Shown piece by piece: positions 3,705 through 32,628 of a DNA stretch of 43,319 bases. Within the stretch, counting starts at the first letter, position 1. Each line of letters opens with the position of its first letter. This DNA is from an uncultured Pseudomonadota bacterium (GTDB taxonomy: Bacteria; Bdellovibrionota_B; Oligoflexia; Oligoflexales; CAIMVM01). Under the pieces are notes generated by a model that was not told the origin of the DNA, did not search any database, and was given only the letters and a program-made list of their open reading frames with translations. Position numbers and translations under genes: made by a program. The stretch is from assembly GCA_903844895.1 (NCBI GenBank), contig CAIMVM010000015.1, positions 1-43,319 of the forward strand, written 5' to 3'.

Positions 3705-5987
3705 TCAAATCGTCTTCGAACTTTCACCATTTGACTTTAAATCATTCAACCTAAGTGGAATATCAAATTCAATAATAGTACCAAAATTAACGTTATCTAG
3801 CACCTTAACACTGCCTCCATGGTCCATGATGACTTGCCGCACAATGGACAATCCAAGCCCAGTCCCATCCGCTTTAGTAGAAACATAAGCCTCAAAGATC
3901 TTCTCCTTCATGGAATCATCAACGCCACATCCATTATCTAACACCTGAAACACGAGTGCTCCATCCCTCGAAAACACTTTAATCCCAATCTCTCCGGAAC
4001 GCTCTGGGGATAATGCTGCGACACTATTTCCGATCAGATTCATCAAGACCCTACCCATTTGATCTCGGTCAAAATAGAAGCGCGGTACTGGCTCTATTTG
4101 ACTCGACCAAGCAATCTGTGGATAACTCTGTTTAAATAGAGTAAAGACTTCTGTAAGTAGCTCCTCAATAGAGTTTTCCTTTAGAGAAATTTCCGGCATC
4201 CTGGAAAAGGTGGAAAACTCATCCACTAAATCACGGAGAGAGTCTACCTGCGCCAAAATAGAGTTAAGAAGCTTCCTAAAAAGCTCTTTATCTTCCCCCT
4301 GAAACTGCCCTTCAAACTTTCTCAGAAGCCTTTGAGCATTTAATTTAATGGGGGTAATGGGATTTTTAATTTCGTGAGCAATGCGTCTCGCTACCTCTTT
4401 CCAAGCTGCAGCTTTTTGTGACCGGACTTGATCTTGAGCGTCATCAAAGACAATGACATAGCCTAGAGGCGCCCCGCGCGAATCCATTAAAGTTCTTGCC
4501 CGAACTATCAAAATCTCAGTACGCCCCAGTTCATCCAAGTGGACTTGGCCGTTGTAATAAGGAGAATGTTCTAAAACACGGAGTATGGGGTCTAAAAACA
4601 AAGTATATAGACTTCGGCCTAGAGCCTCTTCAGGCTTCTTGCCAGTCGCTATGTCTCCTTTAATTTTCAGAAGTCTTTCTGCTGCTCCATTAATGGACCC
4701 TATTATTCCCGACTTATCTATGGATATCACGCCTGCCGAAATACTATCTAATACAATTTCCGTATAGTTCTTTCTTTCAGATATCTCCTGGTTTGATGTC
4801 TCCAAACTAGCTCGCGCTTCTAAATTTTGTAGTTGGTGAAACTCTATGTCTTTTACCATGGTATTGAAGGCGCGAAGCAGTTGACCCGTCTCATCATCGG
4901 AGTGGACCTTAAGATCGACTTTATAGTTGCCCAGAGCTACTTCCCTAGTGGCTTCGGAAAGCTTCTGGAGGGGCCCTGTAATACCTTTTGCTACATAAAA
5001 GCCTAACCAAATGGCAGAAAAAAGTATCAAAAGCAGCATGAGAGCCATCAATATCAGATAATTAATCTGAATCAGCTGTGATTCAGGGCGTAGCCTCGCA
5101 AAACTGCCCAAAACAGCTTCCAATCTAGCTAAAATCTCACCTTCAAAAGCCTCTTCAACGACTACAACACCCAGAAAGATGCCCGACTTAGGGTGAAAGA
5201 TCGGCGCTGAACCCTTGACTATGTCTCTGCCAGCTCTAACCTCTACCGTAGAAAGGGCCGTCAATTCGGGGTTCAATTGAAATTGTTCTGCCGACTCAAT
5301 GGCGAAAACATCTTGCACAAGAGGTACTTGGCTTTGAAAGCCTCGATCGGAGGACCAAAATACGGACCCAGAAGGTTGAAAAATAGTCGCTTTAGAGAGG
5401 CTATACTCGCGAACGAAAAGCCTAAGCCCTTTAGGGGTAAGTGATGGTAATTCTTTGATAATTTGAGAATCAGTATGGAATGTATCGATCTTTTGTAGAG
5501 CGAGTCTTGCGATACTTTTCAACCTCTTCTGATCTTGCTGGTAAGCAGCGGCTCCAGACTCTCGCGCCAATTTTATCGTAGAAGTTACTTGGTCCGAAAA
5601 CCATCCCACCATCGATTTTGAGATAAAGTCGGTCGAAACGTAAGCAAGCGTTAAGCTAGGCGCGATAGCAAAGAAAACCAAAGAAAAAATCAGCTTAGCA
5701 CCAAGCTTTGAACCTAAAACCCCCCTTCGTCTTTCTATAACCAGCCGAGAAATGTTTCTGAATATCAGAAAAGAGAGCACCAAAATTAAAATCACGTTCA
5801 AATTGATCAACGCAAAGTAAAATAGCGACGCGGTAAACTCTCGATTAGCACCAAAACCGCTTGTGAGAAGATAGAGTCGTGTTTCTAGGCGGGTGATCAA
5901 AAGAATCAATATCGTAGAAAGAAGCATAACTACGACTTCAAAAAACCGCTTTTTTTCTTTACGCCTTGAGGTCAAGCTCTGATTCAA
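3705..5987 (-). CDS. ntrY: NtrY-like membrane sensor histidine kinase
   Basis: 760 residues. Predicted membrane helices lie near 16-33, 53-75, 97-117 and 308-332, with a ~190-residue periplasmic sensor between the last two. A HAMP domain (~333-385), a PAS domain (~405-520), a HisKA dimerisation domain with H538 in RRIAHEIKNPITPIKLNAQR, and an HATPase domain follow (N box LMNLIGNSVAAL, G1 DNGCGVDD, G2 GTGLGLSIV). This is the NtrY architecture; the IAHEIKNPLTPI-type H box is characteristic of NtrY. It autophosphorylates and passes phosphate to NtrX, encoded 27 bases downstream of its stop at the preferred start. The start is TTG at 5987, preceded by AGAGG and overlapping the TGA stop of the upstream gene in the tetranucleotide TTGA, which implies translational coupling. 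Signal sensed is not predictable. Confidence 0.92.
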   Translation of the reverse strand: MNQSLTSRRKEKKRFFEVVVMLLSTILILLITRLETRLYLLTSGFGANREFTASLFYFALINLNVILILVLSFLIFRNISRLVIERRRGVLGSKLGAKLIFSLVFFAIAPSLTLAYVSTDFISKSMVGWFSDQVTSTIKLARESGAAAYQQDQKRLKSIARLALQKIDTFHTDSQIIKELPSLTPKGLRLFVREYSLSKATIFQPSGSVFWSSDRGFQSQVPLVQDVFAIESAEQFQLNPELTALSTVEVRAGRDIVKGSAPIFHPKSGIFLGVVVVEEAFEGEILARLEAVLGSFARLRPESQLIQINYLILMALMLLLILFSAIWLGFYVAKGITGPLQKLSEATREVALGNYKVDLKVHSDDETGQLLRAFNTMVKDIEFHQLQNLEARASLETSNQEISERKNYTEIVLDSISAGVISIDKSGIIGSINGAAERLLKIKGDIATGKKPEEALGRSLYTLFLDPILRVLEHSPYYNGQVHLDELGRTEILIVRARTLMDSRGAPLGYVIVFDDAQDQVRSQKAAAWKEVARRIAHEIKNPITPIKLNAQRLLRKFEGQFQGEDKELFRKLLNSILAQVDSLRDLVDEFSTFSRMPEISLKENSIEELLTEVFTLFKQSYPQIAWSSQIEPVPRFYFDRDQMGRVLMNLIGNSVAALSPERSGEIGIKVFSRDGALVFQVLDNGCGVDDSMKEKIFEAYVSTKADGTGLGLSIVRQVIMDHGGSVKVLDNVNFGTIIEFDIPLRLNDLKSNGESSKTI

Positions 5988-6598
5988 AGTTTTCCTCTTT
6001 TTTCAAAAAACAGGCGACCAATCACTTGCCCGCTGTACAAAATTTGAAACTCATCTTGACGGCTTGATAAAGCCACGACTTTAACAGACACACCTTTTTG
6101 CAAATTTGTCTTTAAGTCCTTAATCTCAAAATTAGCCTGAGGCGAAAGGAACGTTTTACTGCCATTTTGAAGCACTCGATCCTTTCCATTGATCCCTATC
6201 ACCGCATAATAAAACTTAGGTTCTACCGTTTTTAAATGTACTGCAAATATAACCTTGCCTTTTTCAATCACAGACAATTCAAAAAAATCTCTATCCTTCG
6301 GCACATCCACAAGATCTCCAAATGAATATGGAGACAAAAGAGTCTTCGATATTTTGTCTTTTTCGATTTGGCTAAATTGGAGAGAAGGGCTTCCAGACTG
6401 TCTAGGGCGTACTCCTACAACTTTAAGAGGCGAACCCTTAGGTAAACTATTAGTGATTCCTGCACTCCAACACTTCTTATCTCCATCTATCAGAACCAAT
6501 AGACAGCGCGCATTACGTGGCTCTATGGCCATACTAATTGTTGCTATCACCAACCAGGAAAATAAAATAAAAAAACAGCTGCTAATTTTTGCTGCCAT
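5984..6598 (-). CDS. Secreted or membrane-anchored protein of unknown function, first gene of ntrYX operon
   Basis: 204 residues, not recognised. The N-terminus (MAAKISSCFFILFSWLVI, then ATISMA) is a hydrophobic segment typical of a Sec signal peptide or single anchor, so the rest is probably periplasmic. The mature part is rich in beta-strand propensity and has two Lys/Val-rich segments that resemble each other in rhythm (LPKGSPLKVVGVRPRQ and LQKGVSVKVVALSSRQ), hinting at a duplicated small beta domain such as an SH3-like or similar fold. Its stop overlaps the TTG start of ntrY, so the two are co-translated. By position it could be a periplasmic partner supplying a signal to the NtrY sensor domain; that is an inference. 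The ATG at 6598 has AGGA about 12 bases upstream, a weak site. Confidence 0.7.
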   Translation of the reverse strand: MAAKISSCFFILFSWLVIATISMAIEPRNARCLLVLIDGDKKCWSAGITNSLPKGSPLKVVGVRPRQSGSPSLQFSQIEKDKISKTLLSPYSFGDLVDVPKDRDFFELSVIEKGKVIFAVHLKTVEPKFYYAVIGINGKDRVLQNGSKTFLSPQANFEIKDLKTNLQKGVSVKVVALSSRQDEFQILYSGQVIGRLFFEKRGKL

Positions 6599-22930: not shown

Positions 22931-23392
22931 CTATCCAAAATCATCAATAAGCGCTTCTGCCTCTTCACCCTCAAAGACGAGTGTATCTTGCTGCTCAAAG
23001 CCTCCGGCAAAAACCTGCAGTGCTAGCATATAGTTCAAACGATTATGTCTTGATTTCAAACCTCGCAAAATCGGGGCCATGGGTGCCCAAGAGGAGGAAT
23101 CAAAATTTTCCAATTTTTTAAGCACCCCTACATAGAGAGTTGCTTTTTCTCCGTTTGCTAGCTCAATGAATTTGGAAAACTGCTGATAAATATCTATCGC
23201 ACTGCGCAAAGTAACTTCCCCTAAAAATGACTCGGCGCCCTCCATCAGCTGATCATTAATAGGAAGACCCGGCTTAACCTGCAAGAGGAGACCAGGGGCA
23301 AACTGACTCTGTACCGGAAAACGGAGGATGCCGAGATCGTCCTTTATCCCCAACAAAAAAACAGCCTTAGATGTGGTGCAGTATATATGCAT
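22931..23392 (-). CDS. Conserved-looking small protein coupled to mglA, function unknown
   Basis: 153 residues, no signal peptide. Its ATG overlaps the mglA stop by one base (TAATG), so the two are co-translated, and it is the last gene of this unit. Visible: a strand-rich first half (VFLLGIKDDLGILRFPV; GLLLQVKPGLPIND) and an acidic C-terminus ending EGEEAEALIDDFG. I see no Roadblock/LC7 signature typical of MglB, and no Walker motif. Co-translation with an MglA-type GTPase points to a partner or regulator, for example an effector or an MglB substitute; that is inference. Confidence 0.65.
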   Translation of the reverse strand: MHIYCTTSKAVFLLGIKDDLGILRFPVQSQFAPGLLLQVKPGLPINDQLMEGAESFLGEVTLRSAIDIYQQFSKFIELANGEKATLYVGVLKKLENFDSSSWAPMAPILRGLKSRHNRLNYMLALQVFAGGFEQQDTLVFEGEEAEALIDDFG

Positions 23393-23976
23393 TAGCCGGC
23401 TAACCTCCGAATCACCTGAGCAGAAATTTCTTGTAAGCTTTCTAAAACACCCATTCCATGCTTTGCCGACGCTTCAAAATCCACGTGCCTTGAAGGGTTA
23501 AGTTCAGAGCGGAGAACTTCAACTGGCACAGCACCAGGCATGTCGCGCTTATTATACTGAATGACAGAAGGCATATCTGAATGGACCAATCCTTCTTCAG
23601 ACAAAATTTTCCGAACGAGTTGTAGCTCTTCCACATTAGAAGCTAGTTTTTCAGGGGCTGAATCGGCGACGAATACGAATCCATCCACCCCTTTCATAAT
23701 GACACTACGAACCGTCTCATAGAGTGTTTGAGAAGGGATCGTATAAAGATGGAGCTTTAAGTGATAGTTTCTTATGAATCCGAGACTTACAGGCAAAAAT
23801 TCAAAAAAAACAGACTGGCCTACACCATCTTCGGAAAGTTCCAAGAGGCCAGCCTTAACCTCGGGTGAAGTTTGATTGAAAATAGCCCGCAAATTACTCG
23901 ATTTGCCAGCACCAGAAGGCCCCAAATAGAGGATCTTACAATTGATTTCTTTAGTTTCAAAATTAGTAAAGGCCAT
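23392..23976 (-). CDS. mglA: MglA-type small Ras-like GTPase
   Basis: 194 residues from ATG at 23976 (family-typical start MAFTNFETKEINCKILYLGP). P-loop GPSGAGKS with S/T at the Mg site, G3 region TIPSQTLYETVRSVIMKG where MglA proteins carry TVPGQ instead of the Ras DxxG, G4 NKRD, and G5 ASAK. In Myxococcus and Bdellovibrio MglA controls cell polarity, gliding and type IV pili. Alternate ATG at 24006 adds 10 residues. Neither start has a clear ribosome binding site; a TATAAT lies 6 bases upstream of the 23976 ATG, so a leaderless mRNA is possible. Cytoplasmic. Confidence 0.88.
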   Translation of the reverse strand: MAFTNFETKEINCKILYLGPSGAGKSSNLRAIFNQTSPEVKAGLLELSEDGVGQSVFFEFLPVSLGFIRNYHLKLHLYTIPSQTLYETVRSVIMKGVDGFVFVADSAPEKLASNVEELQLVRKILSEEGLVHSDMPSVIQYNKRDMPGAVPVEVLRSELNPSRHVDFEASAKHGMGVLESLQEISAQVIRRLAG

Positions 23977-24006
23977 GCGACGATTATAGCAATAAGATGC
24001 AGCCAT

Positions 24007-28918: not shown

Positions 28919-28941
28919 TCAGGCCCTCGAGGCCTGGTTTT
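28919..28941 (+). terminator. Rho-independent terminator after the 1129-residue protein gene
   Basis: TCAGGCC (28919-28925) pairs with GGCCTGG (28931-28937), one T-G pair, around CTCGA, followed by TTTTT. AAAAAAA precedes the stem, so it may also serve the other strand. Confidence 0.85.
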
Positions 28942-28970: not shown

Positions 28971-29051
28971 ATATAGTTCTTATGCCTTTTCAATTGCACT
29001 TCTTCGCGATGATTTCATATCCCGCGCGTCAGTATTCGCAAGCTTTAAAGG
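28971..29051. repeat. 81-bp direct repeat, copy 1
   Basis: An 81-bp stretch beginning ATATAGTTCTTATGCC and ending AAGCTTTAAAGG is repeated without a mismatch 131 bases downstream. It carries a CTTTTCAATT, a TCCCGCG and an ATATCCC, each of which has its reverse complement in or at the edge of the 50-bp spacer between the copies. Confidence 0.95.
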
Positions 29052-29101
29052 TAACTTTAGGGTAATTGAAAAGAGGAACGCTTTTTTCGCGGGAATGTGG
29101 G

Positions 29102-29182
29102 ATATAGTTCTTATGCCTTTTCAATTGCACTTCTTCGCGATGATTTCATATCCCGCGCGTCAGTATTCGCAAGCTTTAAAGG
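29102..29182. repeat. 81-bp direct repeat, copy 2
   Basis: Exact second copy of the 81-bp repeat. The 50-bp spacer (29052-29101) contains AATTGAAAAG (29064-29073) and CGCGGGA (29088-29094). The reverse complement GGGATAT at 29099-29105 bridges the spacer and this copy. The repeat unit of 131 bp therefore looks like a hairpin-forming element followed by a partial second unit. Confidence 0.95.
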
Positions 29183-29268
29183 CAACTACAAAAATCCAGA
29201 AAATACCCCGACAATTGACCAACGATTCCATTTCTTCTTCATCCCATTGGAATAAATAAAAAACAGAG

Positions 29269-30171
29269 CTATGAAGCAGCCTCTAAAAAGTTTCTTGTAA
29301 GCCTAAGAACAAGGCTATAGGCATCACCGCCCTCAAAGAAAAGTTCGTGCTTAGCGTTAGGTATAACTTCATGGCTCACTTTAAAGCTAGACCTTTTTTG
29401 CGCCAAAGACACCCATCGTGAAATGGCCGACTTATCTACTACGGACTCCAATTCTCCCTCTAAAATTAACACGGGACATCTTAACTGGCTTAGTTTGATG
29501 TCATTAAAAACCATATCGCAGGCCTCAAATGTGGCATGAACCCATCCGAAAGTTGGGCCAGGCAAAGAGTAGGGATTGGCACAAATAAGACCCCATTTGC
29601 GCCTATCGGAAGTTAAGCCATTTTTCTCAAAAGCTACCTTGTCATGACTAGCGGCACCGGTCGCTAAACTACCCGCTCCTAAAAAATTGAAAATTGAAGA
29701 AATAGGCCGTGATACTAGGCGCGGGATGGGTAAATTAGGTAGGCCAAATAGAGGCCCTGTACATACAATACGAGTCGGAGAAATAAGTTCGTTTAGTGTC
29801 GCATATAGTCCTATAAGGCTGCCCATCGAATGACACAAAAGATCATAAGGCAATGTATTACAAGTCTTTTGAATCACTTCAGATAGGTCCGCTGCAAAAT
29901 CATCATAGGATCTAACGTGAGCTCTTTGTCCTTCTGAGGCCCCTTGCCCGCGGTGATCCAAAGCTATAACCATGCAATCACTGCCTACATGTAAATCTTC
30001 AAAAAAAAATTCAGAATATTTTTCAATCCATTCCGTTCTGCCATTAGAAAAGACAATTGCTCTTTTAGTATCCGGGGTTTGGTTAAAGACACCATAGCGA
30101 ATCAAAGTTCCGTCTTTTGGGCTAACCAAGTGACTTATCTCCCAAGCCAAGGATGGCAATTTTTCGCTCAT
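29269..30171 (-). CDS. Alpha/beta hydrolase, monoacylglycerol lipase/lysophospholipase-like
   Basis: 300 residues from ATG at 30171 (GAGGA 7 bases upstream; the frame extends to a TTG at 30189). Serine hydrolase of the lysophospholipase type (COG2267): nucleophile elbow LLCHSMGSLIGLYA, oxyanion strand AIVFSNGRTEWIEKYSEFFF, DHRGQGASEG, late Asp in LILEGELESVVDKSAI and His in VIPNAKHELFFEG. It hydrolyses an acyl ester, probably a glycerolipid. Its ATG overlaps the stop of the glycerophosphodiesterase gene by four bases (ATGA), so the two are co-translated and together could degrade phospholipid head and acyl groups. Confidence 0.88.
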   Translation of the reverse strand: MSEKLPSLAWEISHLVSPKDGTLIRYGVFNQTPDTKRAIVFSNGRTEWIEKYSEFFFEDLHVGSDCMVIALDHRGQGASEGQRAHVRSYDDFAADLSEVIQKTCNTLPYDLLCHSMGSLIGLYATLNELISPTRIVCTGPLFGLPNLPIPRLVSRPISSIFNFLGAGSLATGAASHDKVAFEKNGLTSDRRKWGLICANPYSLPGPTFGWVHATFEACDMVFNDIKLSQLRCPVLILEGELESVVDKSAISRWVSLAQKRSSFKVSHEVIPNAKHELFFEGGDAYSLVLRLTRNFLEAAS

Positions 30172-30887
30172 TTTTGTTCCTCGTTCCAAAGTTTAAATTC
30201 TAAGGGAAAATTCGTGCAATGGCCATCAACTCCAAATTGTTTCAGTACTGGCCATCTTTCTTTCGGAATGTCAGCTTTCATTGGGGCCCAAGTATAGGTT
30301 GTCCAACTGTGAAGCTTTACAAAAGCCATAAATGACTCATCGACAAGGGAGCAATCTGGATGAAAGATGGAAGTCTCAATTTTCTCCATCGAACGTTTGA
30401 TTCTATCAAAAAATTTCATTTGAGGAAGTGGGTTCTCCCATAGAAACGCTCTGGATACCGATGGCAAAAGTTTTTTTAAATGAACCAGCATGTCCTCTTC
30501 AAAGGAAGAAACTAAGATTTTAGAAAGTTGTGGGTGATCAGCAATCCTAGACACAAGTGCCTCTACTAACGCTAAATTCGTACCTTTAAGCTCTAAGTTA
30601 AGCTCTATTTGTGGAAGTAGTTCCAGTACCTGTTCTAGCCTCGGAAGCGATTCGAGGTTCTTTAAAGTAATGCCGGCTAATTCACTCGCCGTCATTTTTG
30701 AGATAAACCCCTTGCTCGTAGTTGTGTGACTTAAGGAGTCGTCATGATTGATAAAAATCGCTCCATCGCGAGACAGCTGCAAGTCTAGTTCAATGCGACT
30801 AGCTCCCTCAAAAATGGCGATTTCAAAAGCTTTCATGGAATTTTCCGGGGCCTTTCGGTTGGACCCTCTATGTGCGATGACCTTCAT
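30168..30887 (-). CDS. Glycerophosphodiester phosphodiesterase
   Basis: 239 residues of the UgpQ/cytoplasmic GDPD type: catalytic H6-R7 (AHRGSNRKAPENS), E33 and D35 as metal ligands (IELDLQLSRDG), H48 (INHDD). It hydrolyses glycerophosphodiesters to glycerol-3-phosphate and an alcohol. No signal peptide is present, so it acts in the cytoplasm on imported or turnover products. ATG at 30887 with GGAGG about 4 bases before the start. First gene of the small lipid-turnover operon. Confidence 0.92.
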   Translation of the reverse strand: MKVIAHRGSNRKAPENSMKAFEIAIFEGASRIELDLQLSRDGAIFINHDDSLSHTTTSKGFISKMTASELAGITLKNLESLPRLEQVLELLPQIELNLELKGTNLALVEALVSRIADHPQLSKILVSSFEEDMLVHLKKLLPSVSRAFLWENPLPQMKFFDRIKRSMEKIETSIFHPDCSLVDESFMAFVKLHSWTTYTWAPMKADIPKERWPVLKQFGVDGHCTNFPLEFKLWNEEQK

Positions 30888-30989: not shown

Positions 30990-32414
30990 TTAAGGAGCGG
31001 CAAGGTAAGTCACGGAAATCTGCGAACCAGGCGGAGGCGTTGAATTAGCTAAGAACTTTATACTGTTGCTTCCAGCTATATATTCCCATGTGGTCACTGT
31101 CGCGCCATCTACTTTTATTAGCAAGCTAGGCACATAGGGAGTCTTCTGAAGTGCGATTTGGCTAATCTGAGCCGTTAAATCTTGGCCAATCTCCGCCAAA
31201 GATTGGGACCAGTTGGCCTCACATATCGACTGAACGGAGCCACCAGTTGCCTTAGCAGCATTTATATACTGTGTGCCCTCTTCCGTCGGCCTGCTGTGAG
31301 CGCTTGTGCAGAGATTGCCAGCCTGATCTCGTGTGCCAGTGATCGCTGTTACCGCAAAGTTCCCCTTACCCTTAACCCCATTCACATAAGAAATGAAATC
31401 GTTATGAGTGTATTTGTAATTGGTAAGGCCTTCTGCAGTGAAATTTCTTCCCCTTCCCCCTTCTGGTAGTGACAAACCAATACCATCGTCTTCCTCATCG
31501 GAAATAACAATTATAGAAAGAAATGCATTGGAACGAATCAGCGCTTGATTAGCTCCACTTAATGACTTTTCTATTCCTAAGTGAGCACCTCTAAGTCCAT
31601 GTTCAAAACCAGAACCGCTTACACCCATCTTTGCATACGCGTTAAATTTAGAGACGAGATCAGCATCACTATCTTTAAGCACGGTACGACCGGCGGTACC
31701 GACAAAGCGCCCCTGCAAATGAGTTTCAAACGACCCCCCAAAACTGGCCGGACATTCAGGGGTTAGTGCATTATATGGATCGCAAATATCAGTCGAAGTC
31801 AAAGCTGTCTGAAACTGAATCCCTGTTGACTTCATTTTGTTAATAAAAGAATCGAAATTGGTTGCCAAATAGGCTTGTTCTTCACTCATAGAACCTGATG
31901 TATCCACAATAAACAAGATGTCGACAGGTTTCTTAGCCGGCTGAGTCAAACTTTGTGTGAATGATAGGTAACTAACAGAAGGTACATTTGAAGTTACCGT
32001 TCCTCCAGTTCCTCCAGTTCCTCCAGTTCCTCCAGTTCCTCCAGTTCCTCCAGTTCCTCCAGTTCCTCCAGTTCCGCCATTTTCCGTCGATCCAGTGGGC
32101 ATCCCTTGACTGCCGGGCGTTCCTCCAGTGCCAGCTATAGTACTATCAGTTTTAGTTCCGCCGACGCCCGTTTGGTTGTCATCTGAATTTGCACCGACTT
32201 CACTGTCAGATTTAGCGTGTTCCACATCATCTGGATGTAATACTTCCTTACCAGATTCTTTTGTCGCATCCTCGCTTGCTGGAGAATTGAGTCTTTGAAG
32301 ATTCTCAGTATAGGAGGGGGCCTGTTCTACGCCACATCCGGTTATAGCCCATAGCGGCGCTGCCATTCCTACCAGCAAACACGCATGACCAATTCGAGTC
32401 ATATAAGTTGCCAT
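30990..32414 (-). CDS. Lipoprotein with von Willebrand factor A domain and Gly-Gly-Thr linker
   Basis: 474 residues. A lipoprotein signal peptide ends at lipobox I-T-G-C27. A long low-complexity linker (28-140), rich in Asp/Thr/Ser and with a (Gly-Gly-Thr) repeat at ~113-136, precedes a VWA domain at ~160-410 with MIDAS motif FIVDTSGSMSEEQ (D168, S170, S172). The C-terminal ~50 residues form a small beta domain. The ATG at 32414 has AAGGGG 6 bases upstream; another ATG at 32420 lies only one base behind that site. Likely outer-membrane anchored and surface exposed, with a role in adhesion or protein interaction; specific partner unknown. Two Cys pairs in the VWA (DICDPYNALTPECPAS; NLCTSA ... 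SICEAN) suggest disulfides. Confidence 0.85.
   Translation of the reverse strand: MATYMTRIGHACLLVGMAAPLWAITGCGVEQAPSYTENLQRLNSPASEDATKESGKEVLHPDDVEHAKSDSEVGANSDDNQTGVGGTKTDSTIAGTGGTPGSQGMPTGSTENGGTGGTGGTGGTGGTGGTGGTGGTGGTVTSNVPSVSYLSFTQSLTQPAKKPVDILFIVDTSGSMSEEQAYLATNFDSFINKMKSTGIQFQTALTSTDICDPYNALTPECPASFGGSFETHLQGRFVGTAGRTVLKDSDADLVSKFNAYAKMGVSGSGFEHGLRGAHLGIEKSLSGANQALIRSNAFLSIIVISDEEDDGIGLSLPEGGRGRNFTAEGLTNYKYTHNDFISYVNGVKGKGNFAVTAITGTRDQAGNLCTSAHSRPTEEGTQYINAAKATGGSVQSICEANWSQSLAEIGQDLTAQISQIALQKTPYVPSLLIKVDGATVTTWEYIAGSNSIKFLANSTPPPGSQISVTYLAAP
31999..32079 (-). repeat. 9-bp tandem repeat encoding Gly-Gly-Thr
   Basis: Eight perfect copies of GTTCCTCCA (31999-32070) and a ninth with one change (GTTCCGCCA, to 32079). 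Within the VWA lipoprotein gene this encodes a (Gly-Gly-Thr)n linker. The 9-bp unit keeps the frame if the copy number changes. Confidence 0.95.
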
Positions 32415-32628
32415 ATTCATCCCCTTTTTCTCTAATATTAAGCATCGAGACTTCTCTTTGCTTATATAGATCGCTTTCGTCTTTAGTCATTTCTTCTGTA
32501 GAAAATTTAAATTTGGCCGAAAAAGACATAATATTCGGTGCTTTAGCCTTCTTGGTTAAAAGTCTTTGAACGCTGAAGTAATTCTCGAAGTTAAGATTTT
32601 GATTCCCTATGCGGCTGATTTCATTCAT
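32305..32628 (-). CDS. Possible small protein overlapping the start of the VWA gene
   Basis: 107 codons on the minus strand from ATG at 32628, which has AAAAGAG 5 bases upstream. The first ~70 residues (MNEISRIGNQNLNFENYFSV ...) look protein-like, while the last 35 overlap the VWA gene in another frame and read poorly. It stands divergent from the first glycosyltransferase gene. It might be a real short gene, a remnant, or chance. Confidence 0.25.
   Translation of the reverse strand: MNEISRIGNQNLNFENYFSVQRLLTKKAKAPNIMSFSAKFKFSTEEMTKDESDLYKQREVSMLNIREKGDEYGNLYDSNWSCVFAGRNGSAAMGYNRMWRRTGPLLY

Follow-up and report, generated by a model that had tools for sequence, protein, structure and literature searches.

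A probable insertion-sequence footprint between convergent genes: a solo IS end flanked by two copies of neighbouring DNA

Results

The window, ie the whole stretch of 43,319 nucleotides analysed here, contains a direct repeat whose two copies lie between convergent genes, as had been described originally (Table 1). The copies are 86 bp long and identical at 85 of the 86 positions. The sole mismatch, at 29051, is near the end of the repeat, within a short TTTAAAGG(T/C)AACT stretch, and exact identity spans 80-81 bp. The exact 81-bp duplication of the original prediction is thus real, if slightly longer when the mismatch is admitted. The distance of 131 bases given there is correct as the spacing from start to start of the copies, but the true spacer is only 45 bp. 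A duplication of 86 bp is far beyond chance, and there is no other direct repeat of such a kind in the 43-kb window. Besides it there is one 9-bp coding microsatellite (GTTCCTCCA, 31981-32100), which encodes a GGT repeat in a predicted protein of 476 amino acids (30990-32420, - strand) and is possibly a tract of variable length. A small Arf/Ras-like GTPase, MglA-like by size, is encoded at 23392-24006 on the - strand (Pfam Arf, E = 3e-6).

Table 1. Features of the repeat locus and its neighbouring genes, in order of position in the window.
Feature	Position	Strand	Remarks
Upstream gene, 1129 aa	25461-28850	+	No Pfam match
Terminator-like hairpin in the stretch separating the convergent genes, not part of the repeat locus	28920-28936	-	Predicted
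Copy 1 of the 86-bp repeat	28971-29056	.	First 6 bp, ATATAG, are the proposed left target duplication
Probable solo left end of an insertion sequence, approximately 45 bp	29057-29101	-	Tip CCCACATTCCCGCG on the - strand, last base 29101; by alignment, 40 bp match the ends in contigs C116 and C119 and the 18-bp tip is common to six other loci
Copy 2 of the 86-bp repeat, probably the native target flank	29102-29187	.	Begins directly after the IS tip; the opening ATATAG (6 bp) is the proposed right target duplication
Downstream convergent gene, alpha/beta hydrolase (Hydrolase_4)	29269-30189	-	Pfam

A count of copies in the full genome had been proposed as a check on the repeat. A blastn search of its own genome, an assembly of 372 contigs totalling 4.23 Mb, placed the 86-bp unit at a single locus, and the unit was absent from the order-level relatives and from the plasmids that were searched. 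The spacer recurs elsewhere: when the locus was compared with its own genome, contigs C116 and C119 were matched over the spacer only (85% and 81%, E = 1e-5 and 1e-4, respectively). The assembly is fragmented, with contig ends falling in insertion sequences (IS), which could point to an artefact that doubled the stretch. However, contig ends in this genome have about 141 bp of sequence in common, which suggests an assembly k-mer of about that length, and both the 86-bp repeat and the 131-bp unit are shorter than this. In addition, the copies differ at one base and both adjoin unique sequence on their outer sides. An artefact is therefore extremely unlikely.

The last 40 bp of the spacer (29062-29101) terminate in the 18-bp sequence TTTTCGCGGGAATGTGGG. 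Allowing up to one mismatch, this tip occurs at seven places in its own genome, ie in the window and at six others. The same search of 42 other genomes of the order found no occurrence, and its reversed-pattern controls gave no matches. The exact tip had five matches in 84,980 species together with one viral match, all in unrelated sequence, as chance predicts. Short-read assemblies break at repeats, and five of the six other tip places are within approximately 150 bp of contig ends. The sequence beyond the terminal GGG or GTGGG differs at every tip place.

C116 and C119 have one common subterminal sequence over 141 bp, and C214 and C352 have another over 139 bp, so that these pairs represent two different ends with the same tip. 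At the tips, the flanks of C116 (...TTGGAG) and C214 (TTGGAG...) share exactly 6 bp, as do those of C119 and C352 (TTTTAA). Two matched 6-bp pairings of a left-type end (C116, C119) with a right-type end (C214, C352) were thus observed among 12 pairings, against about 0.003 expected; none of the remaining ten pairings among all ends shares three or more bases. C116/C214 and C119/C352 each represent one insertion of a common element that duplicated 6 bp of its target, and because its ends pair in this way the motif can be identified as the terminal inverted repeat (CCCACATTCCCGCG...) of an IS. The body of the IS and its transposase are missing from the assembly.

The ends in C269 and C223 are relics, with no long direct repeats at the IS end. 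Two of the seven IS ends adjoin predicted AAA ATPase genes, DUF4143-like by eye (C269, 1021-2169; C223, approximately 5100-6200), and there is a long palindrome before each gene. The association is possibly a coincidence, or the genes may be passengers or a preferred target.

IS1634-family elements have ends of the form C-----YT and generate target duplications of 5-6 bp (PMC2266710). The window tip, CCCACATT, has this terminal pattern when set against Table 1 of that paper, and TTTTAA and TTGGAG agree with the usually AT-rich, 5-6-bp duplications of the family. In C108 there is a complete IS1634-family element, both ends of which have the tip CCTACATTCC-GCG, with ATATAG as its target duplication; in an alignment, its tip and that of the window agree in 12 of the first 14 columns. 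The sequence of the tip and the length of the duplications make it likely that the parent IS belongs to the IS1634 family, an assignment which is provisional because the parent transposase itself is unreadable in the assembly. Its 3'-end peptide gave no family match, no convincing plasmid match and no class-level relative, and when the left end of the IS was compared with plasmids, one match (Priestia, E = 9e-3) was taken as chance.

The genome as a whole gave 17 matches to the IS1634-family transposase model (NF033559). These are located in C290, C108, C255, C247, C192, C127, C260 and other contigs, and are associated with several different tips. The abundance of this family is a likely cause of the fragmentation of the genome.

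The inverted segments from which a large folded structure had been proposed are real but short, namely CTTTTCAATT/AATTGAAAAG, TCCCGCG/CGCGGGA and ATATCCC/GGGATAT. Their sources include the IS tip, which contains CGCGGGA, and the point at which the tip meets ATAT; the last pair exists only through the terminal GGG abutting ATAT at 29101/29102. The fold itself is unremarkable, the + strand RNA being little better than its shuffles (z = -1.74) and the - strand RNA no better than them (z = 0.16). The short segments and the foldable + strand could still be taken for a REP/BIME-like element or a small RNA gene, both of which were put forward in the original prediction. REP/BIME elements exist as many dispersed palindromic copies in a genome, whereas the 86-bp unit occupies one locus and is absent from relatives. 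As for a small RNA, the Rfam covariance models gave no match to the locus, one promoter-like site was found compared to 1.2 expected by chance, and the unit is not conserved in the order-level relatives. Neither suggestion was borne out, and we give them very little credence.

Discussion

Copy 2 opens with ATATAG immediately after the last base of the IS tip; copy 1 opens with the same ATATAG and is preceded by unrelated sequence. The repeat boundary thus coincides with the IS tip, which is what would be predicted for an insertion into ATATAG with the repeat derived from the flank to the right of that target. The locus is best explained as an IS footprint, ie a solo IS end between two copies of neighbouring DNA, the IS being probably of the IS1634 family, and we put the probability of this at about 0.8. 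In place of the interior and right end of the IS, 80 bp of the right flank are present for a second time. The original suggestion of a mobile-element remnant was correct in kind, but it applies to the spacer and not to the 81-bp copies. A striking exact duplication with folded segments is in this way explained by the IS tip in the spacer. The locus is a relic without an expected function, and none is needed to explain it.

ATATAG flanks the solo left tip in the window and is consistent with a target duplication of the IS1634 type, but sits inside the 86-bp repeat. Its presence on both sides of 28977-29101, together with one canonical tip, would be consistent with a MITE of about 125 bp that was mobilised by the IS and has an aberrant right end. 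A MITE is defined by two terminal inverted repeats, a short core and several copies, and here there is one tip, with no inverted copy of it at 28977, and a single copy in the genome. Moreover, the interior has the same sequence as the native flank on its right side, which would not be expected of a MITE. We regard this explanation as very unlikely.

For the IS footprint, we infer that the order of events was insertion, loss and then duplication. The IS would have inserted into the intergenic stretch at ATATAG. Subsequent repair, for instance by template switching, or unequal exchange with an IS-free sister chromosome would then have linked two positions, one in the target DNA, 86 bp downstream from where the target site starts, and one about 45 bp into the left end of the IS. 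All else of the element would thereby have been lost, leaving the 45-bp solo tip with flank on either side. A plausible site for the switch is the stretch that holds the sole mismatch. The relatives for comparison were related at the level of the order only, and there was no empty site among them.

The 86 bp (or more) could instead be a long target-site duplication of the IS1634/IS1549 type, made at insertion, with a later deletion from the left duplicate into the IS having spared the 45-bp left tip. The IS footprint is common to this and to the preferred explanation, which differ only in the time at which the flank was duplicated. One insertion and one deletion would suffice, and the tip both fits C-----YT and resembles the local IS1634-family element. 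Long duplications, variable and copy-dependent (8-514 bp), are documented for two members of the family, IS1634 and IS1549, and according to a 2008 review no mechanism had been proposed for them (PMC2266710). However, both insertions of this IS that could be resolved, and also the complete C108 element, have 6-bp duplications, and the 86 bp in the window is unlike them. No long direct repeats were present around the other IS1634-family copies examined. For these reasons a 6-bp insertion followed by later repair is favoured, and duplication of the flank at insertion, although possible, appears rather unlikely. If this is right, the locus would be a further example of the family's unexplained target duplications of variable length. 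We consider it improbable that an IS1634-type insertion was aborted after one end, ie that joining succeeded at one tip but not at the other, with 86 bp of the target being copied during gap repair. If true, the locus would capture in nature the way in which IS1634 and IS1549 make their long variable duplications.

The explanation favoured here is an ordinary one, in which the slightly unusual detail is the length, 86 bp, of the duplicated flank. Compared to known systems, two IS1380-family copies in this genome (C150 and C24) likewise have ends that begin CCCA, but these ends (CCCAAATAATGCATTTG) part from the window tip after a few bases; IS1380 was rejected as the parent on this difference, although its transposases are present. 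The IS1634 family resembles the window element in the C-----YT start of the tip, in the 6-bp duplications at clean insertions and in the near-identical tip in C108, whereas the window locus retains no more than about 45 bp of the left tip and has no transposase. Solo IS ends and IS excision footprints have a truncated end beside a target duplication, as in the window, with the difference that the flanking duplication here is 86 bp and not 6 bp.
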